This document shows, one piece after another, positions 5,719 through 40,417 of a stretch of DNA of 40,417 nt. Both the position numbers and the translations under genes were made by a program. The stretch comes from a virus. Position 1 is the first letter of the stretch. The number at the start of each line of letters is the position of its first letter. The notes beneath the pieces were generated by a model. It saw only the letters and a list, made by a program, of their open reading frames with translations. It made no database searches and was not told the origin of the DNA. The stretch spans positions 1 through 40,417 of IMG/VR virus record IMGVR_UViG_3300045972_000809, one strand, 5' to 3'.

Positions 5719-8700
5719 TTACCAGTTATTTTTCCATGTAGAGCCATTGTATGTAGTCATTACACCGGTGCTGGCATCAGTTGCAGTACAATCAGTACAA
5801 TAAACAGTAAGGCCTGCAAATGGTGATGATATTGCACCTCTTTGGGTAGAAGTCATGCGAGGCGGAGCAAAACCTTTGGTTGTACTTGCAACATCTAACA
5901 AGGCTGCTGCATTTGGCGTACCACCTACGCCTACGCTACCTGTATTATAAATCCAGTTCATTCCAGCACCTGCACCAGATGAAAAAACAACATCCTGGTG
6001 CCTGCCTGTACCCCCATTTGAAATATAAGAAGTGGATGTGCCCTCTGAAACCATTGCTAAAAAAACATCATTATCTGCATTATTTAATCTTACTGTTACA
6101 CCATTGGGAGCGCTATTTCCTGTAGTAGTTGAATTGCCTACTTTTACCGGCCCGATAATACCATAACTTGTTTTAACTGGTACACCAAAATCTGCATTGG
6201 TAGGCGTTGCGCCACTTCTATTAAAAGTTAAAACCTGCGTACCACTGCTGTTTGCATCATTTACTGCACGAAATACATAAGTATTTCCTGATGCTCTCTG
6301 ATCCCAAATTTTCTCATCAGTAGTTGCAGACATATTTCTGGACATTATTTGGCCGCCATTTCTTGACAAGTTTAAAGAGCCAGTAAAAGAGGTATAATCT
6401 GTACCAATATTAAATTGCCCAGCTGTGTAAGCAAGGCCACCAGATACTGCATAAAATGGTATATCGCTTTGGTGCATTATGCCTTTCCAGGATGATCCAT
6501 TGTAAATAAAATATCTTGAACTATCGAGATTGTAAACCAATAGGCCTACATCTATTGAACCGGCTGTACCAATTGCATTGATTTGGGCATTAGTCATGGC
6601 AGGAAACCTTACACCCTTAGTGGTGCTTTTAACAGTTAAAATAGATGATGAATCTGAATTATTTACATTATCTAAACCGGTTCCAATATCAATTTTGTTA
6701 TGTACATAAAGTTTATCAGGCACCTGAATATTGCCAAATAAATTATTAAATAATTTCTTGCCACTTATGCCTGAATTTGTGAGGTTTGAATTTCTTGTTA
6801 TTGATCCTGTGGTATCAATATAAGTTACTGGCAAGCTGCCTGATGTTGTAACATTAAAGAAATTCAACCCATCAACTACACCACCAGTAGTGCCTGGGTA
6901 AACACCATAATCATAGGCATCATTGTTTAAAGTTCTTGTAATACGTCTATTTCCATTGATCCGAATATTTCCAAATCTTATATTTTTTATTTGCGTGTAC
7001 AATTGCGTGCCAGTACTTAAATATCTCCATGTAATACCATCTGCACCAGTTACATCACCACTTGTGTGCGTAGGTGCATTTGTTCCCGTAAAAGGCCCAG
7101 CGGTAACTGCCTTATAAATTTTACCGGCATTTGTAACATAGTTTCCTGTGGAATAACTATTACCACTATTCCAGGCTAACCAGCTACCTGTTAACAGTCT
7201 AACAGCAAAACCTGTAGGCGTTGGATTATTTACCGTATCAATAATAAAATCTTCAAAACTTATATCCTCTATACTATCTGCACTGTGCTGATATGCTGCA
7301 TAATCATCTGCCAATACAGCTATAGCATCATCGTAAGTGTCCAGATGCCCACCTTTAAATCTTACATGTTTACACCCATTTTGTAAATGCAATCCATCTT
7401 TAGCGCTTACAATACGTGTATCTGTAAATATTGAATTAGTAAGACTTTGAAAGTGGGTAGAAAAAACACCTGCATCATTGTTAACTAATGTAAAATTTGA
7501 AACCTGCACACGTGTGGCATACGCTAACTGTAGATTGCCATTTGCAGTTGCAGCTGCACGCCCTGTGCTACCACCATAATGGTTAGCATCAATGCTTATC
7601 CTTTCAATTACAATGTTAGAATCTAATGTGCCGTTATTTCTATAAGTAGCATCATTTACAATGGCATGAGTAAATGCAGCATTCTTTTTTATTATGGTGC
7701 CCACAGAGCCAATAAGACTTTGATTGCTTTTTATTCTTATTGCTGAATTTATTAAAAATGTTCCAGGGCTAAGTTTTGCAATACCTCCCGTTGGTATTGA
7801 ATCAAGTGCTATCTGAATTGATTTAAATGGATATAAAATACTTCCAACTTTAGCAGTAGCATCATTACCGGCACTATCAATATATACAGTTCTGTTTGAT
7901 GGTAAAAAATTAGTTACAACAGAATCTCGTCTACCATCAAAAGTCTTTACATTATTAAATCCTGCTCCATAAAATGTAGTATCGCTGGGTATTGCTGCAA
8001 TCAAACTATTTACCTGCGTTTTAGTGTATGCATCACCACTTAAGCCATACCCTGCAATGGTAGTAGGTATGCCAGTGAGCGAACTAAAAGCACTAACACC
8101 ACCAGAACCTGGTGCAACCCAGCTGCGCACACCAGCACTGGTGCTGGATAATACATATCCAGACGTAGAAGGGTTACCTAATGCAGCCTCTGCATCAGTA
8201 ATACCATAGCCACTGATAGTAGTAGGTTTTGTTGTAAGGCTTGCAAACGAATGGCTGTGGCTTATCGTTGCATATAAAGCATTAGCAGCAGTCTGTGTAA
8301 AGGCATCAGTAATGCCATAGCCGCTGATGGTGGTAGGCTTGCTGGTAAGCGTGCTAAAGGTATGCACGTGGCCAAGTGGTGCATATAAGGCGTCTGTAAT
8401 GCTCTGGCTCATGGCATCAGTAATGCCATAGCCTGCCACTGTGGTAGGCTTACTGGTAAGCGCTGCAAAAGTATGGGTGTGTGATAGTGCAGCTGCATCA
8501 GTAATGCCATAACCTGCCAACGTAGTAGGCTTACCGGTGATGGCACTAAATGCAGGCGTACCACCTGTACTGATTACAATATTTCCAGTATTATCAGCTG
8601 GCACACCGTTAACACTAACAGGCAAAAAAGCACTGCTTAGCAATGGCCTTTTTGGCATATAGAGATATGAGGCATTGCTTATAGAGTCACCACGAATATC

Positions 8701-25289: not shown

Positions 25290-25745
25290 ATGTACGTAAA
25301 CAAAACCGATTACATAGGCACCATCAGCACCAGCCTGCTCAATATTTTAATAGCAGAGGATGCTGTAAATATCATAGCTGATACCAGCAAGCAGGCAGAG
25401 GACACCATAGCCACCATGGTAGGTGTACTGTATGATATTGCACCGGAATTATTGAAGGTAGCCAATGAGCGCAATGGCTATATTTTAAATCTTGCCATCA
25501 GCATAGGCCTGTATAATATTTACCAGCGTGCAGATGATGAAAGCATACCGCAAAAAGTCATAAAAAATTATGATGATGCTATGAATGATTTAAAACTCAT
25601 CAGCACCGGTAAACAGGCATTAAGCCTGCCACCTAAACCAGTTGATACAACTGGTGAAACTGCTGGCACTGTAGAGGATGCTGGCATAGGTGGCACCGGT
25701 ATAAGGCGCATAGGCAGCGCAGCAAAACGCACTCACCACATTTAA
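25290..25745 (+). CDS. Mu gp36-like head/neck protein (DUF1320)
   Basis: The 151-residue protein fits DUF1320. It has an N-terminal YVNKTDYIGTISTSLLN helix, a central helical region with YNIYQRADDESIPQKV (about 73-90) and ALSLPP at the end of the conserved part. A Gly/Thr-rich tail follows. Proteins of this family, Mu gp36 among them, lie in head-tail joining clusters. It starts 5 bp after the lysozyme. Its position before the portal differs from Mu, where gp36 comes after the capsid, so gene order has been rearranged. Confidence 0.75.
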   Translation: MYVNKTDYIGTISTSLLNILIAEDAVNIIADTSKQAEDTIATMVGVLYDIAPELLKVANERNGYILNLAISIGLYNIYQRADDESIPQKVIKNYDDAMNDLKLISTGKQALSLPPKPVDTTGETAGTVEDAGIGGTGIRRIGSAAKRTHHI

Positions 25746-28959: not shown

Positions 28960-29430
28960 ATGTTTTTAACTCCCGTTTATAAAGCAATTAAAAACCGCTT
29001 AACACCAGCTTTTGCAGATGGTACTGCTATACCTGTATTTTTCTACATTAGCCAATACCTGCCAGGTAAAGAAAACACCAGCTACCGTGTGCCTGCCATT
29101 TATATTGATATGCCAGATGATAGTAAAATAGAATTTTTGCCAAGAAAAATAATGCACTCAAAAGATGCCCTTATAAAAATACACCTGGTTACCTATGCAC
29201 CTTTTAAAAATCATGATGATGCTGTACAGGATGCAGCAGTATTACTGCATGATAGTTATTTAAAGCAGATTGATGTTTTAATAAATGGATGGTTTGCTAT
29301 TGAAGGTGGCGTTAATTTAACACAGCAATTTTTAACAAAGGGAGGTAGTTTTTTGCAGTTTAAGCACATGTGCCTGGTAAGCGTATTAACGTATCAAACA
29401 GAAATTTATAGCAGGCATTTACAAGGCTAA
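28960..29430 (+). CDS. Head-tail joining or tail-terminator protein (Mu gp37-like position)
   Basis: The 156-residue protein starts 2 bp after the gpG-like gene and ends the plus-strand late operon. It has 'TPVYKAIKNRLTPAFADG', a central 'IYIDMPDDSKIEFLPRKIMHSKDALIKIHLV' (about 48-78) and 'QFKHMCLVSVLTYQTEIYSRH' near the end. This matches the general layout of minor tail/terminator proteins in which a strand rich in Ile/Val is followed by a 'Dai....vy..l..'. I cannot assign a family with certainty. Its stop overlaps the stop of the convergent HTH gene. Confidence 0.6.
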   Translation: MFLTPVYKAIKNRLTPAFADGTAIPVFFYISQYLPGKENTSYRVPAIYIDMPDDSKIEFLPRKIMHSKDALIKIHLVTYAPFKNHDDAVQDAAVLLHDSYLKQIDVLINGWFAIEGGVNLTQQFLTKGGSFLQFKHMCLVSVLTYQTEIYSRHLQG

Positions 29431-29648
29431 TAATTAAGGTTACTGTATTTTTTTACAGTATCAGCACAAGGCACATCTACATTGTGCTCTTTTAAAATTT
29501 TGGCAACGGTTACCGGTGATAGATAAATACTGGTGGCAACCTCTTCAATCACTGCGATGATTGTCCATTTAGGATTTTTTTTGCGCACAGTTGTAAACTG
29601 CTGCCTGATGTGATTATCCCGTAATTGTCTTAGTGAAATATTGCGCAT
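29427..29648 (-). CDS. Small HTH regulator, candidate middle/late activator
   Basis: I chose ATG 29648, because it lies 15 bp after a perfect -7 box (29664-29671); a longer frame to 29768 crosses that box and a terminator. The 73-residue protein has an N-terminal basic helix (LRQLRDNHIRQQFTTVRKKNP) and a helix-turn-helix, ATSIYLSPVTVAKILKEHNV (about 40-59). It lies between the end of the early operon and the late head operon, the place of Mor and C in Mu. Mor-like activation of late genes is an inference from position and the HTH. Confidence 0.65.
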   Translation of the reverse strand: MRNISLRQLRDNHIRQQFTTVRKKNPKWTIIAVIEEVATSIYLSPVTVAKILKEHNVDVPCADTVKKYSNLNY

Positions 29649-29663
29649 GGTGTAGATGGTGTA

Positions 29664-29671
29664 CAAATATA
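29664..29671 (-). promoter_or_regulatory. -7 box of the HTH regulator promoter
   Basis: On the minus strand TATATTTG matches the Bacteroidota -7 consensus TAnnTTTG exactly and lies 15 bp before the regulator ATG. The -33 region is weak (only GTTTA in the area), so activation may be needed. Confidence 0.6.
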
Positions 29672-29713
29672 AATTTTCAGATTGTATAAACCTGCACCTG
29701 TTAATATCCTGCA

Positions 29714-29744
29714 TAAAAAAAGCCGCTCCACAATTGGAACGGCT
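29714..29744 (-). terminator. Intrinsic terminator closing the early operon
   Basis: AGCCG-C-TCC (29721-29729) pairs with GGA-A-CGGCT (29736-29744) around a 6-nt loop. On the minus strand it is followed by TTTTTTT. It lies 50 bp after the last early gene and before the regulator promoter, so early transcripts should end here. Confidence 0.8.
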
Positions 29745-29795
29745 ACCACTGCAAATCGGCAGTTGCATCAGTGCTGCTTTTACAATTTATAAAAA

Positions 29796-30703: not shown

Positions 30704-31102
30704 CTACAATTTACTCAAATAATCCTTATACACAATTTTAAACTGTGTTACCAGTTTTGGCAATTCATTGTAGGTGTAAGCATTCAGCTTTTTTTTGTCA
30801 TAGCTAAAGTTTTCACACCACTCATTTAAGCGCTGCATATTTATCGCTTGTGTGCCAGGTAAGTGCCAGTGCATTTCGTGCGCCATGCTAATGATACGCC
30901 TGCGCATTTTCTGGCTGGCTGCATCGCTTGCATCTGTAATACTGGTGAGGTAGGTGATCATTTCTTTTGCCTCATCGTTTGTAAGTTCCTTGCTGCTCTC
31001 ACTTCTACCTTTAGTAAAGCTGGTAACTAAATCAGCTTTCTGTGGCATAAGGCCTGCTTTATTAAGCAGGCCATGTAATTGCATATTTAGTGCTGGGTTC
31101 AT
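30704..31102 (-). CDS. Mu gp16/GemA-like early protein
   Basis: The 132-residue protein has TNDEAKEMITYLTSITDAS (about 41-59), then MRRRIISMAHEMHWHLPG (66-83), NMQRLNEWCENFSYDKKKL and YTYNELPKLVTQFKIVYKDY at the end. These regions look like the DUF1018/gp16 family of Mu-like phages, where GemA-type proteins alter host gene expression and topology. The match is by pattern and by its place in the early operon. Confidence 0.55.
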   Translation of the reverse strand: MNPALNMQLHGLLNKAGLMPQKADLVTSFTKGRSESSKELTNDEAKEMITYLTSITDASDAASQKMRRRIISMAHEMHWHLPGTQAINMQRLNEWCENFSYDKKKLNAYTYNELPKLVTQFKIVYKDYLSKL

Positions 31103-31107
31103 AATTA

Positions 31108-31530
31108 TTATTTATAGTCATTTAACCATGCCTTAGACCTTAGATAAGTGTCAGGATAAAGTTTGGCCTGGTCTGGTATTTTGCGCAGGTGTTTATGGTA
31201 TTTATCCAGCCTGTCAAAAGCTAAAGCCCTATCACTTTTGCTTAGCCGATCCCATACCTGTTCTGCACGTTCCTTTTTAAATTTATGATCATATTTCTCC
31301 CAAAACTCCATAAATGATATCAGTATATCATTACCTACAATAATGGTTTGAGGGCCAAAAGACTTGCTTAAATTTTCAGCAAAAACCGGCACCTGTTTTT
31401 TAAATGCATCAATAGCAGGCGGCTGCATATCTGTTTGCGATACATCCAGTTTTTGCAGCAATCCTTTATCATTATAAACAGCAATGGCTTCACCGGTGTA
31501 ACGTGGGTTAGTTATTAAAAACTGTTTCAT
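31108..31530 (-). CDS. Hypothetical early-operon protein
   Basis: This is a 140-residue soluble protein. The N-terminal 30 residues are a short beta region (KQFLITNPRYTGEAIAVYND). The rest is helical and basic/acidic-rich, with 'WEKYDHKFKKERAEQVWDRLSKSDRALAFDRL' (about 77-108) and a closing YLRSKAWLNDYK. Similar short proteins of Bacteroidota phages with a 'LS..dr..A...l..Y...l' string are known to me only as uncharacterised. It starts 4 bp inside the DUF4406-like gene's stop region and lies 5 bp before the gp16-like gene. Confidence 0.6.
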   Translation of the reverse strand: MKQFLITNPRYTGEAIAVYNDKGLLQKLDVSQTDMQPPAIDAFKKQVPVFAENLSKSFGPQTIIVGNDILISFMEFWEKYDHKFKKERAEQVWDRLSKSDRALAFDRLDKYHKHLRKIPDQAKLYPDTYLRSKAWLNDYK

Positions 31531-33520: not shown

Positions 33521-34264
33521 TTAAAATGATTGTAAATTTTCGGCAGGCGTTTCATTTTCTGCAAAAAGTTCCTGCGCAATCACTTTTTGCTTTTTTGGTA
33601 TTTTTTCTGATGTCATTTTTTTATAATCCTTTCCCCAATAATTTTTTGCAGCATCCTCCCAAATAACCATATTTTTTCTGCTGCCGTACCGGCTCACTTT
33701 TACGATGGCTAAAAATCCCTCTACAAGTATTTTTATGTTGCAGTCTCGTTTTATATCCAGTGCTGCCTTTCCATCTGGCTGGGTGCCGTTTACATGGCTA
33801 ATGATGAGAAATATTTTACGCTTACCCAGGCTTTTGCCAAACACAAAACTTTTCTTTAATAGCTTGTAATCTTCAATCTTTAAACCGCTAAACTGCCAGC
33901 TATCCATGATGATAATTTTGGGGCTGCGTTTACGCTTTAAAAGGGCCATTAATTCCTCAATGGTTTCACCATCACTAAAGCGCAGGTTTGGCACCTCTTC
34001 ACGCAGGTTGTGGCGTACAATTAAATCCTGTATGGTTTTGCCGTGTGCCTCTTCATAACTGATGTAAAGGATATCACCCAGGCTTTTAAATTCCTTAAGC
34101 AGGCGCACTAAAAAGTTGGTTTTACCCTGGCCACTTTCACCATAAATAATAGCAGTGAAACTATCCTCTATATCACCAATGGCGGCACGCACTTCATCGC
34201 TTAAGCCTGGTACAAGCGTATATTTTTTAGCGCTTAATTGTTCAACATTTAATCTTTTACCCAT
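33521..34264 (-). CDS. RecA/RadA-like AAA ATPase
   Basis: The 247-residue protein has a Walker A GESGQGKT (42-49), an 'ISYEEAHGKTIQDLI' segment after strand 2, Walker B IIIMD (117-121) and DIKRDCNIKILVEG (about 169-182). This is the RecA/DnaB-like single-domain pattern of phage recombination or helicase-loader ATPases. The leader has ACCTAAACAAAATG, as in other early genes. It is distinct from the MuB-type ATPase at 36452 and probably acts in replication or strand exchange. Confidence 0.75.
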   Translation of the reverse strand: MGKRLNVEQLSAKKYTLVPGLSDEVRAAIGDIEDSFTAIIYGESGQGKTNFLVRLLKEFKSLGDILYISYEEAHGKTIQDLIVRHNLREEVPNLRFSDGETIEELMALLKRKRSPKIIIMDSWQFSGLKIEDYKLLKKSFVFGKSLGKRKIFLIISHVNGTQPDGKAALDIKRDCNIKILVEGFLAIVKVSRYGSRKNMVIWEDAAKNYWGKDYKKMTSEKIPKKQKVIAQELFAENETPAENLQSF

Positions 34265-34392
34265 TTTGTTTAGGTTTTTTGGGCTGCAATTAGCTACAGC
34301 AGTGTGTTTAAGTAAGGTTTAGGTGTATTTTTTCGAGTGCAAAAAGGTACAAACCCCTATACATTCGAGGTTGAAAATTGACAGAAAATGAA
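34265..34392. promoter_or_regulatory. Intergenic spacer in the early operon with partial dyad
   Basis: This 128-bp gap in an otherwise tightly packed operon holds no ORF I can support. TCGAGTGCA and its near-inverted partner TACATTCGA are about 20 bp apart in a T-rich stretch. CCTAAACCTTA, the core of the leader repeats near 37.3 and 37.6 kb, recurs at 34313-34323. TACCTTTT on the minus strand is a weak -7 box candidate. A second early promoter is possible but not shown. Confidence 0.35.
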
Positions 34393-34551
34393 TTATTGCA
34401 TAGCTGTTGGCTGCTGGGTGGGTAGGTTTTGGGCTGGCTTTTGGGTTACTACATGCAGGCATTTTTCACAGGCCTGCAAAGTAATTTCAATACTGCGCCA
34501 TGGTGCCTGGCATGCAGGGCAGCTGGTAAAAGTGGTGGTATTTTCTTGCAT
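34393..34551 (-). CDS. Small zinc-ribbon protein
   Basis: This 52-residue ORF is too short for most scans. It reads MQENTTTFTSCPACQAPWRS, then CEKC near 28-31, a CxxC...CxxC zinc-ribbon pair. The last 20 residues are Gln/Pro/Thr-rich. On the opposite strand there is a 68-residue shadow frame of lower plausibility. It is placed between the DUF3164 gene and the RecA-like ATPase, and a 6+4-bp hairpin precedes it. Function not known. Confidence 0.55.
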   Translation of the reverse strand: MQENTTTFTSCPACQAPWRSIEITLQACEKCLHVVTQKPAQNLPTQQPTAMQ

Positions 34552-34592
34552 TGTTTTAAATTTTGCTGGTGATAAATTGGCTTTTAAAATAT

Positions 34593-34618
34593 AGCCTGCT
34601 GGTAGAAACCAGCTGGCT
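34593..34618. other. Hairpin before the small zinc-ribbon gene
   Basis: AGCC-T-GCTGGT (34593-34603), loop AGAA, ACCAGC-T-GGCT (34608-34618) form a 10-bp stem with one T/T mismatch. It lacks a T-run on either side, so it is an RNA or protein site rather than a clear terminator. Confidence 0.4.
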
Positions 34619-34652
34619 TGTTTACCTAAACCCTGCCGCTAAGCAGAATATT

Positions 34653-35294
34653 TTAAAGCGTTGAAAACGTCAAATTGATATTGCGATAGCTGCCATCATC
34701 CTGCTTCTCCCAAACCCTCATATATAGCTTTGTTCGGTCTATACTCTGTGCCTGCTTAATCAGTTCACAGGCCTTTTGAAAGGCCACTGCTTTTATCTTA
34801 TCCTCATACCGTAACAGCTGAAACACTTTACCTGTATCAATCATTCCCTTTTGATTTGCAAAGGCACTTTTTACAAGTTCGCTTATCAACTCATTTGATT
34901 CAGTCATGTTGGCACTGATGTATTTATTAAGCAGTATTAATGCCTCTGTCATTAAACCACTATCCCACTTCACAATATCATTTACATCAGCCTCTACTTT
35001 TATTGATCTATCGAAATTGAACCAGGTTAACGATCCTTTGCCGGTCTTTAGCTTTTTATCGTTCTTAAGTTCGTACTCTGCTTTTACCAGGGCTGATACC
35101 TCTGTAAATGCTTCTTTCATCATACTGTGCAGCTGTGCTAATGATGCCTCTACACTTAGTGCTGCTTTCCATATTTTAGCGGCTAACACCTCTTTGCTCT
35201 TATCACTTTTAGGAACAAATTTGAAGGGCACTGAATCGCCTGCTGCGTTTAACCACGTGGCGTTTTTACTTGTTTGAATTTTTACTGTTGGCAT
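34653..35294 (-). CDS. DUF3164 protein
   Basis: The 213-residue protein fits DUF3164, which is common in the early operon of Mu-like phages: NATWLNAAGDSVPFKFV (about 11-27), a long helical middle, SLTWFNFDRSIKVEADVND (87-105) and the C-terminal RTKLYMRVWEKQDDGSY. Its biochemical role is unknown to me. It is 6 bp after the small hypothetical gene upstream. No membrane segment or signal peptide is seen. Confidence 0.8.
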   Translation of the reverse strand: MPTVKIQTSKNATWLNAAGDSVPFKFVPKSDKSKEVLAAKIWKAALSVEASLAQLHSMMKEAFTEVSALVKAEYELKNDKKLKTGKGSLTWFNFDRSIKVEADVNDIVKWDSGLMTEALILLNKYISANMTESNELISELVKSAFANQKGMIDTGKVFQLLRYEDKIKAVAFQKACELIKQAQSIDRTKLYMRVWEKQDDGSYRNINLTFSTL

Positions 35295-35300
35295 TTTATT

Positions 35301-35630
35301 TTAATTTTTAAATTGAATAGATACAGTTTCCGGTTTAGAATAATATTGCTTTATATCGTTGGATAATTTCAGTACCAGGTTACGTGTATAAACGTCCTCA
35401 TCAAAAATGGCATCCTCAAAAGCAAGCGCAAAAGCTAATGCTACATCATCATCCATTTTTATTTTATAAGCTGGTTTTAATTCTACCAGCGCCCTGGCTA
35501 TTTTGATGTAAAATTTCTTTAAAATGCACACCACTAATTTTGTTTCAATAGTTGTAGCTGATAGTGCCAAAATATAGGATAGCAGTTTTTCAAGTGCCTG
35601 CATTTCTGATTTGCTTAGCTTCATTTTCAT
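35301..35630 (-). CDS. Hypothetical early protein
   Basis: This 109-residue, mainly helical protein starts MKMKLSKSEMQALEKLL and has two further hydrophobic-faced helices (about 20-45 and 66-80) and an acidic patch (MDDDVALAFALAFEDAIFDED). No motif recognised. Its start overlaps the DnaA-like gene by 4 bp, so it is translated in the early operon. Confidence 0.6.
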   Translation of the reverse strand: MKMKLSKSEMQALEKLLSYILALSATTIETKLVVCILKKFYIKIARALVELKPAYKIKMDDDVALAFALAFEDAIFDEDVYTRNLVLKLSNDIKQYYSKPETVSIQFKN

Positions 35631-36037
35631 AAATCAATTTTTGAAATAATGTTCCTTATTTGTGCTTCAATTGGGTCCTTTGTGAAAAGAAAACCCTCTA
35701 TTTTTGTGCAGGCTACCAGTACAGTACTATGATCTTTATTAAGGTATTTACCAACAACCTTACTATTAAAACCGACTACCTTATGAGCAATGTAAAAGAA
35801 GGTATGCCGGGCATCCATAAGGCCACTTAATTGATCCCGTTTACTACTCTTCATAGCAAATTCAGTTACCTTAAATTCATTGCTTACCAGGTATGAAATA
35901 TACTCAAGCATTTCATCCTGTTTATTGGTAGGATAAGGCTTTATGCTAACCCTGTAGCGTTCACCAGTAATGGCAAGTATTCGGGCCTCTGCTCTTGAAA
36001 CCACTGCCTGTACAATGGGTAAGTGTTCTACTAACAT
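35627..36037 (-). CDS. Stand-alone DnaA domain IV-like protein
   Basis: The 136-residue protein carries DnaA domain IV, the DNA-binding part of the replication initiator, with no ATPase domain. The region ARHTFFYIAHKVVGFNSKVVGKYL (76-99) followed by KDHSTVLVACTKI (101-113) matches the DnaA signature with DHSTVL. Residues 1-55 are an uncharacterised helical part. In host DnaA this motif binds DnaA boxes. In the phage it may bind the host origin or a phage site to steer replication. It overlaps the next gene (36031) by 7 bp. Confidence 0.8.
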   Translation of the reverse strand: MLVEHLPIVQAVVSRAEARILAITGERYRVSIKPYPTNKQDEMLEYISYLVSNEFKVTEFAMKSSKRDQLSGLMDARHTFFYIAHKVVGFNSKVVGKYLNKDHSTVLVACTKIEGFLFTKDPIEAQIRNIISKIDL

Positions 36038-36423
36038 GCTATATCTTTTTGAATTTCACGGATCATGTTTGCATAATGGCAGTTAAGCACAACACCAGAT
36101 GGAAAAATCTCATGGCGCAATACATCTGCATCATTTATGTTTAAATAAATCTGCTGCCTGGTAGATGGCTTAAGCTGATCCACATCACTGGTGATAAAAG
36201 CCGTATCTCTAAACAGCCACTCATTGCGCCACCAGTTCCAAAAAATACGGTTGTTGATAAGGGCATCAATTTCATCAGGGCACTGTGGTATATAGCCCTG
36301 CAAGTACTGGCAACCCATTTTAACCTGATACTCATTGTACTCCTTTTCTGTCCAATGCATAAGCTGCATAACAGCCTCTTTTGCGGCAATCATTTTTTCA
36401 ATGATGTGTTGTGAATGATTCAT
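36031..36423 (-). CDS. Hypothetical early protein
   Basis: ATG 36423 (MNHSQHIIEKMIAAKEAV) is preferred. An upstream frame to 36477 overlaps the MuB-type gene and adds an unlikely leader. The 130-residue product is helical with a 'NRIFWNWWRNEWLFRD' Trp-rich segment (about 63-78) and no known motif. It may be a small adaptor for the ATPase or the DnaA-like protein it overlaps. Function unknown. Confidence 0.6.
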   Translation of the reverse strand: MNHSQHIIEKMIAAKEAVMQLMHWTEKEYNEYQVKMGCQYLQGYIPQCPDEIDALINNRIFWNWWRNEWLFRDTAFITSDVDQLKPSTRQQIYLNINDADVLRHEIFPSGVVLNCHYANMIREIQKDIAC

Positions 36424-36451: not shown

Positions 36452-37324
36452 TTACTTTTTACCATTGCGCCTGGCAATGATGTTATACTTTAGTATCTGC
36501 CTTTCGATAGCCCTTAAATCGCCTTTATAGATGTTGAAAATTTCCTGTATATCGGCAGCATTGGTAACACCATGCGCTTTGCATATTTCTATCACTTCGC
36601 TCTTATCCGTTCCATCCAATGTGATAAACTTGCCACCCAGGCGGCTATATATTTCTTTAAAGCCTTTTGTATTACGCTGCACACCTCTCACTATGCGCTT
36701 GCTTAAGTAATCAGTACCCAGCATTACAATACCACACAGGCCTTTTAACTCATTGTATAAAGTGATGTAGAAGTACAGCACATTATCTGATAGCTTGTCA
36801 ATTTCATCAATGATTAAAAGTGGCTGGTACTGCCTGCGCAGGTTGGTAACAATAGCGTTCATCATTTCGCCTACATTGTACCCAGTATTGATGATACCCA
36901 TTTCATTAAGGATAGCAGCTAAAAACATTTTCTTATTCCAGTACTCACTGCATGCAATGTGGTACACACTTTTTTTGCGGTTAACACTGGCATACCAGGC
37001 TGCTGTAAAAGTTTTACCGCTGCCACTGTTACCGGTAATGGCGAAGTTTGCACCCTCTTCGCGGGCAATATCAAAAAACTCTACCAGCGTGCGCACATCC
37101 TGCGTTTCTACCAGTGTTACCTGCTTTGTCTGCCAGCCAATTTGTTTGCCGGTGCTAATCCACATGGCATCGCTTATAGCATCCCAATTAGTGGCAATCA
37201 TTTGTATACAAGTGGCTTCGCTTACACCTTTTAAAGATGCTGCTGCTTTGGCCTGGCTGTTATAACCGCCAATGTATTTTTGCAGCAGGCTTACAATTTC
37301 TTTTTTTTGAATTTCTGTAATCAT
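36452..37324 (-). CDS. MuB-type AAA+ ATPase, transposition target selector
   Basis: The 290-residue protein has an N-terminal helical HTH-like part (about 22-48: SQAKAAASLKGVSEATCIQMI), a Walker A GNSGSGKT (98-105), Walker B LLIIDEIDK (169-177), and sensor motifs (MLGTDYL). MuB binds target DNA and stimulates the MuA transposase. The order transposase, then ATPase, is the Mu order, with a small zinc-ribbon gene inserted between them here. The start lies downstream of a repeated leader (37330-37351). Confidence 0.85.
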   Translation of the reverse strand: MITEIQKKEIVSLLQKYIGGYNSQAKAAASLKGVSEATCIQMIATNWDAISDAMWISTGKQIGWQTKQVTLVETQDVRTLVEFFDIAREEGANFAITGNSGSGKTFTAAWYASVNRKKSVYHIACSEYWNKKMFLAAILNEMGIINTGYNVGEMMNAIVTNLRRQYQPLLIIDEIDKLSDNVLYFYITLYNELKGLCGIVMLGTDYLSKRIVRGVQRNTKGFKEIYSRLGGKFITLDGTDKSEVIEICKAHGVTNAADIQEIFNIYKGDLRAIERQILKYNIIARRNGKK

Positions 37325-37329
37325 GATTT

Positions 37330-37351
37330 TTATTTTTAAGGTTTAGGTTTA
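37330..37351 (-). repeat. Direct repeat, copy 1 (leader of MuB-type gene)
   Basis: A 22-bp element with the core CCTAAACCTTAAAAATAA (minus strand) begins at the TAA stop of the zinc-ribbon gene and ends 5 bp before the MuB-type ATG. It is identical to 37591-37612. Confidence 0.85.
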
Positions 37352-37585
37352 TCTAATAAATACAGGTTCATCTACAGTATGTATATCAAATTCTTTTTTA
37401 CATGTGCCACATGCTAAATGCAGTATTTTATGGTAAGGAACAGCCCTGCTATAGCCCCATTTAAAAATTACCCAGTGTAGCCATTTGTTTATTTTCTTAT
37501 CTACTTGTAACCTTTCGCCACAATGTGGGCATGTTAGTACCGGTTCAACAAGGGTTGTAAATGATGTTACTTTTGTATTGCACAT
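37349..37585 (-). CDS. Small zinc-ribbon protein between MuA and MuB genes
   Basis: This 78-residue protein has a CPHC (19-22) and CGTC (59-62) pair that should hold one zinc. The middle has Trp/Leu-rich segments (NKWLHWVIFKWGYSR). It sits between transposase and ATPase, where Mu has no gene. It is flanked by perfect 22-bp direct repeats that contain the intercistronic leader. This suggests insertion of a cassette by recombination or duplication. Function unknown. Confidence 0.65.
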   Translation of the reverse strand: MCNTKVTSFTTLVEPVLTCPHCGERLQVDKKINKWLHWVIFKWGYSRAVPYHKILHLACGTCKKEFDIHTVDEPVFIR

Positions 37586-37590
37586 AAAAT

Positions 37591-37612
37591 TTATTTTTAA
37601 GGTTTAGGTTTA
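37591..37612 (-). repeat. Direct repeat, copy 2 (leader of zinc-ribbon gene)
   Basis: This copy of the 22-bp element starts at the TAA stop of the transposase gene (37610-37612) and ends 5 bp before the zinc-ribbon ATG. The two copies flank the zinc-ribbon gene, 261 bp apart. Confidence 0.85.
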
Positions 37613-39568
37613 CATTTTATCAATCGGGCTGCTTAGCCTTTTTTGTGGTGGTGCCTGTTGTATCTGCTCCATTTCGTTTTGCTGGTAGCTTAATTCTGCT
37701 GCCTGCCTATCGCCTTTTAAAACAAAACCAGCAGTAAGCAAAGCGTTAATATCTACACCGGCATTTTGTATGGTATCAAAACGCTCATCTTGTTTTTTTA
37801 CAACAAAATCTACATGCCTTTGCTTGCCATCTAAGTGCGCATTAAGCCTGGCACGATCACCATCCTGCTGATCTGCTAAAGCACGTGGTTGATAAGTTGG
37901 AGCAGTAGCCAAAAAGCGCAGCCTGTTAAAATCAGTAATAAGCACTCTGCTAAGATCATAAGGATCATAAATCGTATTAACCCTGCATCCTTTGTGCTCG
38001 AAATAGTATTCATCAGCGATATCATAATTGTATCTTTTATTGTTAATTGAAATATCTAAACCACGATCTGTGATGGTGTTTAATTCGTTGCGTACTGTAC
38101 CCAGCTTTAGCAAAAATTCCATATCGCTAATCGGTTTTAATTTATCAGCAGGCATATTTTTAAATGCTGCTAACCAGGCTGCTTGTTTGCTGATGCCTTT
38201 AGCATCAGGCATAAGGCGCAGGCGTTCAAAGTGTGCTTCAATATGCTGTGGTGCCTCTTGTACAGTAGGATAATTTGATGCATTTAGTTTTAGTACCTCT
38301 TTGTTTACACCTTCATTTATGGATGTAATATTATTACCTGTGTAATTGTTGGTGCCAAACTTCATACTGCGTTTCCAGTGGGTGCTGCCAAAAAATTGCT
38401 CTAAATATCCACGGCGTTTACTGCCTACCGGTGTTTTAAAATAATTCCCCAGGCCTTGGTAAAAAGGTTCCAGCTGTCCGATAGCATAGCGGTCTGTTTT
38501 AACCTCATGTGGCAGGTACCACGAACCGGTTAACTCCTTAATGTGATACATGGCATTTAGGTAGGCTTCTTTAACTGTATCTGGTGTAAGTACCTGTGAA
38601 AATGCATATCCTAAAACGTAATCATTAAAACTATCTATAACAACGATGGCCTTAAACTTATGGTAGAATTTATGAGCGGTTTTATCTTCCCAATCCACAA
38701 AAAAGAAGTCTAAATGATTATCATCACTTTCAACCAGGTACAGTGGTGCAGATGGCCTAAAGCCTTTCACTGATTTACTAAACTTATTATAATAAGCCTC
38801 TCTACCTTCACGCTGCATTACCAGTATTGCATTGTTTTTGCGTCTGTAATTACCTACTGTAGCCTCTGTAATTGTTTTGCGGTCGTTACGCATAGCCCAC
38901 GCATTATATTGCAGGCATACCCATGCATCATCGTGCTGGTTTGGGTTGGCAATCATTTCAAATAGTATGCTTTCACTTAACTCATCATCAACCTTTACAC
39001 CATTGGTATTGCCAAACCTCCAATCAATAAGGCAGGCATAACCGGTGTCCTGGTATTCTTTCATTTTTTCACGCAGGCGCTTGTAAGAAGATGGCAACTC
39101 TATTTTATCAGCCTCAATAATGGCTTTTACATTTTCATAAAATGCAGCAAGGCTTAAGTTTAATTCTTTCTTTATGTACTTCTTATCCTCATTGCATTTT
39201 ATAATCATGTTGAGCCAGCTGGCAGCAGTAACATAGTTTTTGATGTGATCCAAAGGCAGGCTTTTGTTGCCATCAAATTTGTAGTGCGTATAAAAAGTTT
39301 CAGCCTTTGCATCTGTAACCACCAGCTTTTTAATTGGTGCCTTTGCAATGTATTCGTAAGGGTTACCAAAGTGCGCAGTCAGTTTTTCTTTATCCTTTGG
39401 CCTTAGTTCTGAAAACTTAACTAAAGGCCTGCGCTTATCTGCTGGGTTCTCAATCATCATCCAGAATTCACCATTTCGAAAATTATTTTTCTTAATAGTA
39501 TCTTCTTTCCAGCCAGCCAAAAGAAAATCTGAAAATTCGATGTACAATATTTTATCTACTATTTTCAA
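37610..39568 (-). CDS. MuA-like DDE transposase
   Basis: The 652-residue enzyme cuts and joins the phage ends. The catalytic RNase H-like region carries SDDNHLDFFFV (Asp283 by analogy with MuA Asp269), KTDRY (Asp359) and RRGYLEQFFG (Glu390). N-terminal DNA-binding helical domains precede it (about 1-260), and a basic, Gln-rich C-terminus (about 550-652) should contact the ATPase. The proposed start is a TTG at 39568; no in-frame ATG lies upstream before a stop. Alignment with MuA residues is by pattern. It is the first large gene of the early operon. Confidence 0.9.
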   Translation of the reverse strand: MKIVDKILYIEFSDFLLAGWKEDTIKKNNFRNGEFWMMIENPADKRRPLVKFSELRPKDKEKLTAHFGNPYEYIAKAPIKKLVVTDAKAETFYTHYKFDGNKSLPLDHIKNYVTAASWLNMIIKCNEDKKYIKKELNLSLAAFYENVKAIIEADKIELPSSYKRLREKMKEYQDTGYACLIDWRFGNTNGVKVDDELSESILFEMIANPNQHDDAWVCLQYNAWAMRNDRKTITEATVGNYRRKNNAILVMQREGREAYYNKFSKSVKGFRPSAPLYLVESDDNHLDFFFVDWEDKTAHKFYHKFKAIVVIDSFNDYVLGYAFSQVLTPDTVKEAYLNAMYHIKELTGSWYLPHEVKTDRYAIGQLEPFYQGLGNYFKTPVGSKRRGYLEQFFGSTHWKRSMKFGTNNYTGNNITSINEGVNKEVLKLNASNYPTVQEAPQHIEAHFERLRLMPDAKGISKQAAWLAAFKNMPADKLKPISDMEFLLKLGTVRNELNTITDRGLDISINNKRYNYDIADEYYFEHKGCRVNTIYDPYDLSRVLITDFNRLRFLATAPTYQPRALADQQDGDRARLNAHLDGKQRHVDFVVKKQDERFDTIQNAGVDINALLTAGFVLKGDRQAAELSYQQNEMEQIQQAPPQKRLSSPIDKM

Positions 39569-40206: not shown

Positions 40207-40237
40207 CAAAGGTTGTCTAATTTTTAGACAATTGCAA
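40207..40237 (-). promoter_or_regulatory. Early promoter with repressor operator dyad
   Basis: On the minus strand TTG (40235-40237), a 20-bp spacer and AACCTTTG (40207-40214, one base off TAnnTTTG) form a plausible promoter. The perfect dyad TTGTCTA-ATTTT-TAGACAA (40213-40231) covers the spacer, and a half site GTCTAATTT recurs at 40248. A repressor bound here would block the early operon. Confidence 0.6.
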
Positions 40238-40276
40238 GTATTTAATAGTCTAATTTATCAACAGTATGTTAATAAG

Positions 40277-40417
40277 ATGATATTTTTTTCAGAAAATGCA
40301 AAATACTTAAGGTTGAATGCTGGACTTTCACAGGCTGAAATAGCCGCTAGTATTGGTATTAGTAGAACTACATGGGTAGGTTATGAGAGCGGACTTTCAC
40401 AGCCAAATATTTCAGGC
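40277..40417 (+). CDS. Phage repressor, XRE-family HTH (5' part, cut by window end)
   Basis: The frame runs from ATG 40277 to the window end: 47 residues of an XRE/Cro-CI helix-turn-helix, LRLNAGLSQAEIAASIGISR (12-31), then TTWVGYESGLSQPN. It is divergent from the Ner-like gene across the operator. Its reading direction toward the phage left end fits the Mu c gene. The C-terminal part is missing, so repressor type (serine-cleaving or not) cannot be told. Confidence 0.8.
   Translation, partial: MIFFSENAKYLRLNAGLSQAEIAASIGISRTTWVGYESGLSQPNISG

Follow-up and report, generated by a model that had tools for sequence, protein, structure and literature searches.

Why would a Mu-like phage keep the DNA-recognition domain of the bacterial initiator DnaA as a separate gene within its transposition operon? 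The question is raised by an open reading frame of 136 aa, with an ATG start, at 35627..36037 on the minus strand of IMG/VR virus record IMGVR_UViG_3300045972_000809, whose whole stretch of 40,417 nucleotides is termed here the window. The encoded stand-alone DnaA domain IV protein is called DIV.

Domain make-up and fold of DIV

The original prediction held that DIV retains domain IV of DnaA without the ATPase and that its gene belongs to the early operon, and both points were borne out. Residues 45-113 match Pfam PF08299 (Bac_DnaA_C) over profile positions 2-69 of 69 with E=3.1e-12 and 46.8 bits, above the gathering cut-off of 31.5 bits. The NCBIfam DnaA model TIGR00362 gave 44 bits against a cut-off of 343.9, and since this match was confined to the last 97 positions of the model, DIV was taken to have no AAA+ domain; in fact, family profile searches found neither the AAA+ ATPase domain III nor any P-loop family match in DIV. 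A profile of the DIV family matched 1j1v, the structure of DnaA domain IV from E. coli in complex with a DnaA box (E=5e-20), and the AlphaFold model of DIV (pLDDT 78) fits 1j1v with an rmsd of 1.5 and a target TM of 0.89. Structure comparison also matched the model to 3pvp (E=4e-4). DIV thus resembles DnaA domain IV in fold and length and, in the window copy, in all base-contact residues, but it differs from the DnaA initiator in having no domains I-III and in carrying another N-terminal module, residues 1-44, which lies outside domain IV and is kept in phage relatives. With relatives in the transposition operons of many other such phages (see below), DIV is predicted to be a genuine phage DNA-binding factor, rather than a demonstrated replication blocker.

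The early region of the Mu-like phage

The genes around DIV are listed below in the order of the operon, followed by the more distal genes of the early region.

37610..39568, minus strand: MuA-like transposase (phrog_310, E=4e-27)
37349..37585, minus strand: small Zn-ribbon protein between MuA and MuB (weak Zn-ribbon matches)
36452..37324, minus strand: MuB-like AAA ATPase, DNA transposition protein (phrog_296, E=2e-50; AAA_22)
36031..36423, minus strand: X, 130 aa, helical and bearing the W-rich motif FWNWW, with a 7-nt overlap at the DIV start
35627..36037, minus strand: DIV, with the phage-specific N-terminal module (residues 1-44) and the HTH domain (residues 45-113)
35699..35905, minus strand: DnaA domain IV proper (Bac_DnaA_C) of DIV, with the contact-residue motif K-R ... 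AR ... KDHSTV
35301..35630, minus strand: Y, 109 aa, with a 4-nt overlap (ATGA) at the DIV stop and conserved after DIV
34653..35294, minus strand: DUF3164 protein, typical of Mu-like early regions (PF11363, E=6e-25)
33521..34264, minus strand: RecA/AAA-like ATPase of the early region (phrog_6891, E=1e-44)
31108..31530, minus strand: replication-initiation-like protein (weak phage replication-initiation C-terminal match), conserved in most related prophages
30704..31102, minus strand: GemA-like early protein (weak Pfam match), conserved in relatives
29427-29768, minus strand: small HTH protein at the distal end of the early region, without family match and related to one in locus L091

MuA and MuB lie directly upstream of DIV on the same strand, which places the gene in the early operon as had been proposed. 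From MuA to DUF3164 the order is MuA, Zn-ribbon, MuB, X, DnaA-IV, Y and DUF3164, with gaps of at most 28 nt, and the overlaps of DIV with X and Y suggest that it is translationally coupled to both. Judged by phrog_310, phrog_296, DUF3164 and the weak GemA-like match, the record is a Mu-like transposable phage of Bacteroidota. The early region of Mu itself contains A and B, then semi-essential early genes, GemA, and at the distal end Mor, the activator of middle genes. The order MuA-MuB-...-DUF3164-GemA-like in the window resembles this arrangement, whereas X, DnaA-IV and Y are an addition not found in Hankyphage, a Porphyromonas Mu phage or Elizabethkingia TCUEAP3, all of which are without PF08299. 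A TCUEAP3 gene annotated as a replication initiation protein was considered as a counterpart of DIV and set aside, being different in sequence and containing no DnaA-IV.

X gave no match in Pfam, NCBIfam or the PDB, nor in a fold search, and no relatives of Y were found in Pfam or NCBIfam. No sigma-like or RNA-polymerase-binding partner was recognized beside DIV in the same searches (Pfam, NCBIfam and PDB for X; Pfam and NCBIfam for Y), and X, DIV and Y showed no Pfam match to TniQ/TnsD.

Relatives of DIV in other phages

Among 395 genomes of the phylum, the best relatives of DIV were the C-termini of full-length host DnaA proteins (~480 aa), together with two stand-alone proteins. In these two the similarity reaches into the N-terminal 44 residues, and both are encoded in Mu-like prophages in the order MuA-MuB-X-DnaA-IV-Y. 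A profile search with X led to further prophages, in which a DnaA-IV gene follows X at L079, L080, L081, L082, L083, L084, L085 and L092. As X had been the route to these loci, 219 genomes of one order were surveyed, free of that bias, for Bac_DnaA_C genes additional to host DnaA. The survey returned 12 such genes in 11 genomes, 8 of which adjoin MuA and/or MuB, and X stands directly upstream of DnaA-IV in five of these 8. The remaining four survey genes are those of L094 (another phage-like region), L098, L099 and L093. In total, a stand-alone DnaA-IV gene with MuA/MuB was found in 14 distinct Mu-like phages of Bacteroidota, directly after X in 11 of them.

The linkage is not universal. X follows MuB without a recognizable DnaA-IV at L086, L087, L089, L090 and L091, so that X may also work without DnaA-IV. 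Besides the three phages named above, the viruses with the closest MuB are also without the DIV gene; its absence from many Mu-like phages of the phylum implies that its role there is dispensable or replaced.

Members of the family are 12-29% identical to the window copy. A motif outside the DnaA domain, consisting of a helix with A-E-x-x-I followed by a V-x-V stretch, recurs at the N-terminus of 10 of 14 phage members. Pfam detects 13 of the 14 rows of the family alignment (A5, three rows of which are DnaA-IV proteins of phages outside the MuA/MuB operon) at E<=0.01, and the operon-family members of L080, L081 and L085 score under the curated Pfam cut-off. A tree in which the phage copies form one clade was not rejected (AU p=0.32; 88 columns, long branches), and the single-origin tree was set aside, as 88 columns with long branches cannot separate one capture from several.

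Stand-alone DnaA-IV proteins are already known. Three PHROG families, phrog_27829, phrog_30669 and phrog_16091, likewise represent phage-encoded DnaA-IV, but DIV reaches none of them at E<=0.01. Bradyrhizobium phage ppBeUSDA76-2 also encodes a DnaA-IV protein; it differs in its ERF and YqaJ recombination genes and has no annotated transposase within the stretch inspected. In the literature searched, with partial coverage, no description was found of DnaA-IV in a MuA/MuB operon, of the phage N-terminal module or of the X/Y partners, and the recurrence in Mu-type transposition operons of Bacteroidota is apparently undescribed.

Several observations were made at the survey loci where DnaA-IV does not adjoin MuA or MuB. 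A stand-alone DnaA-IV gene at L098 (7782-8198, minus strand) lies beside a DnaB-like helicase gene and is apparently chromosomal, and that of L099 (7867-8295, plus strand) is similar to it in sequence. No Mu-like neighbours were found for either, and the two perhaps belong to a cellular family. At L094, near another phage DnaA-IV gene, an open reading frame at 6750-7577 (plus strand) is made up of IGYGAS-type repeats in tandem, which can be read in several frames.

DNA-contact residues and DnaA boxes

At the positions of E. coli R399, D433, H434, T435 and T436, alignment places R, D, H, S and T in DIV, so that the window copy keeps all contacts. All DnaA-box contact residues are kept in 4 of 11 aligned phage copies (window included) versus 32 of 32 host DnaAs, a comparison in which the host proteins were chosen by similarity to the window protein and are thus biased to conserved copies, while divergence is greater among the phage proteins as a whole. 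At least one change at R399, D433, H434, T435 or T436 is present in the other 7 copies. Position by position, R407 is conserved in all 11 phage copies, R399 in 8, D433 in 7, H434 in 9 and T436 in 7; in the 32 host DnaAs all these contacts are invariant save T435, which is S, A or T. A strict need for the canonical box is hard to reconcile with recognition-helix residues such as G-H-E-N or P-A-T-A. The contact motif reads KDHST in the window protein and RHHTT in that of L061.

It had also been proposed that DIV marks phage DNA for replicative transposition or competes with host DnaA at DnaA boxes, with a search of the prophage for such boxes as a check. That search revealed no excess: TTWTNCACA occurs 3 times in the window, where 8.6 sites were expected, and a perfect TTATCCACA is absent. 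Nor is a consistent excess seen in the other phages that carry the gene. L061 has 5 TTWTNCACA sites, where 1.2 were expected, but they are scattered, and about 18 loci were tested in all. Counts in the flanks beyond MuA are small, with 0 DnaA boxes versus 4.6 expected for prophages with the gene and 4 versus 2.7 for those without it. No origin-like cluster of DnaA boxes was found in the phage. Canonical boxes as a mark on phage DNA were rejected for want of an excess in the window, in the early region and in most relatives; marking through canonical boxes is therefore unsupported. As a general function of the family, the evidence leans against both host-oriC competition and DnaA-box marking, and a phage-specific protein of altered specificity, predicted to act on phage sites, fits better.

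Proposed control of phage genes at phage-specific sites

The explanation ranked first, which is held tentatively and at somewhat short of an even chance, is that DIV is a GafY/GafA-like factor that would act at phage-specific sites and control phage genes together with a partner. GafY, a homologue of DnaA domain IV, binds and activates the promoter of a gene transfer agent (GTA) together with GafZ (PMC9632790, PMC11150451), and the N-terminal DnaA-like domain of GafA is required for activation of RcGTA promoters (PMC9638019). A transcription role is proposed for DIV because these promoter activators are the only characterized stand-alone DnaA-IV proteins of phage-like elements. DIV shares with Caulobacter GafY/HdaB and with the N-terminal domain of Rhodobacter GafA the character of a small phage-linked DnaA-IV without an ATPase, encoded beside a partner gene (PMC9632790, PMC11150451, PMC9638019). 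The differences are that GafY and GafA are alphaproteobacterial, that GafY belongs to a GTA regulatory locus instead of a MuA/MuB operon, and that its partner GafZ is sigma-like, whereas no match was obtained for X or Y.

Several lines of evidence point to a factor for phage sites: the domain and fold matches to DnaA domain IV, the MuA/MuB linkage in 14 phages including 8 of the 12 genes of the unbiased survey, the conserved N-terminal module with the overlaps of DIV with X and Y, the contacts altered in most relatives alongside an unchanged fold and an unchanged R407, and the unenriched DnaA boxes. For GafY-like control in particular, the precedents are joined by a weak match of DIV to NCBIfam PRK06030, a stand-alone DnaA-IV family that presumably includes GafY, but its 21.1 bits lie far under the cut-off of 136. 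Against such control, X and Y are unlike GafZ-like or sigma-like partners, no binding site was found, and the HTH gene at 29427-29768 occupies the position of Mor, so that the phage may have another activator. Moreover, the place beside MuB suits a transposition or replication role equally well, and the gene is missing in the three phages named above.

In the proposed mechanism, DIV would be a small sequence-specific binder of dsDNA, predicted from its DnaA-IV helix-turn-helix and phage-specific N-terminal module, and, given its position, would be expressed early with the Mu-type transposition genes. Devoid of AAA+, it would neither unwind DNA nor form a DnaA filament by itself, as expected from established DnaA biochemistry, and the gene overlaps suggest that it probably acts in complex with X and Y. 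DIV would bind phage-specific sites upstream of phage promoters, not canonical DnaA boxes, and with a partner protein might switch on later phage genes, a transcription step modelled on GafY and GafA.

The DnaA recognition domain thus recurs across the Mu-type transposition operons of Bacteroidota, its contacts diversified and its fold kept. If the GafY-like action is true, it would link GTA activation to the regulation of live, widespread transposable phages. It also follows as a caution that phage DnaA-IV proteins are not automatically initiators or inhibitors of replication.

Possible roles in transposition and replication

Second in rank, and unlikely, is a role as a transposition accessory or target selector, in which X, DnaA-IV and Y would form a DNA-recognition module with MuA and MuB that directs where insertion occurs or builds the transpososome at particular sites. 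The gene order is comparable to TniA-TniB-TniQ, and the place immediately after MuB is held in divergent phages with the MuA/MuB linkage conserved, but X, DIV and Y are without a TniQ/TnsD match, and DnaA boxes are enriched neither in the phages nor in the flanks outside MuA. A precedent exists in the TnpA-REP-like (TIRYT) transposases, some of which carry Bac_DnaA_C at the C-terminus in elements without DnaA boxes, and for which fork targeting or a new target sequence was suggested (PMC6006769). They resemble DIV in using the domain in a mobile element with no DnaA boxes at the element; the domain there is fused to an HuH transposase, whereas DIV has a gene of its own and belongs to a DDE (Mu-type) system. 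The more specific proposal that X, DnaA-IV and Y make up an undescribed three-gene early module, with the DnaA fold in a TniQ-like role directing insertion or replisome recruitment, is doubtful, and more so than the general one. Were action with MuA/MuB true, it would represent a new way of aiming or replicating a transposon.

Improbable too, and placed below target selection, is a takeover of host replication, in which DIV would compete with host DnaA at the DnaA boxes of oriC and lower or deregulate initiation during phage growth. DnaA domain IV by itself is sufficient for binding DnaA boxes (1j1v), the window copy retains the equivalents of R399, D433, H434, S/T435 and T436, and the few boxes in the phage would leave DIV free for host sites. 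A lone domain IV is without the cooperativity of DnaA filaments, which DIV alone would therefore miss, and relatives at the same position carry changed contact residues. Inhibition of DnaA by a prophage has a precedent in another cluster, yfdQRST (PMC4776307). Against this, PMC9632790 reinterprets the similar HdaB of Caulobacter, once proposed as a replication regulator, as the phage-like gene activator GafY, and the authors of that study propose that GafY does not act on oriC through DnaA.

Still less likely is a replication hand-off, in which DIV, acting with the ATPase and the replication-initiation-like protein, would help to draw the host replisome to a phage site or to the product of Mu-type strand transfer. 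Those two companion proteins are encoded in the early region and conserved in relatives, and some similar proteins are named DnaA-like replication initiation protein in PHROGs, although such names are annotation alone. Domain I of DnaA serves for helicase binding and domain III as the ATPase; both are missing from DIV, and the phage is without an origin-like cluster of DnaA boxes. Finally, a decaying capture, i.e. a recently acquired or drifting host dnaA fragment without function, would agree with the divergence of L080, L081 and L085 below the Pfam cut-off but is very improbable and disfavoured by conservation, namely of intact overlapping reading frames at the same location in phages with copies only about 13-29% identical, of the non-DnaA N-terminal module and of R407 in 11 of 11 copies.

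Other sequence elements of the early region

An identical 21-nt leader, AACCTAAACCTTAAAAATAAA, stands directly 5' of the Zn-ribbon and MuB genes (37590-37610 and 37329-37349, minus strand). Its core, ACCTAAACC, occurs in 5 copies against 0.3 expected, with the other copies at 25631, 34316 and 34624, and is possibly a phage regulatory or translation-leader element. Copies of the core on both strands lie in the 388-nt gap between DUF3164 and the ATPase (34265-34652), which also contains a terminator-like hairpin on the plus strand. At the right edge of the window, an incomplete HTH repressor-like reading frame (40277-40417, plus strand) diverges from the early operon. Between the two, at 40215-40263, lie an operator-like inverted repeat, GTCTAATTTTTAGAC, and a second half-copy of it that overlaps TTATCAACA.
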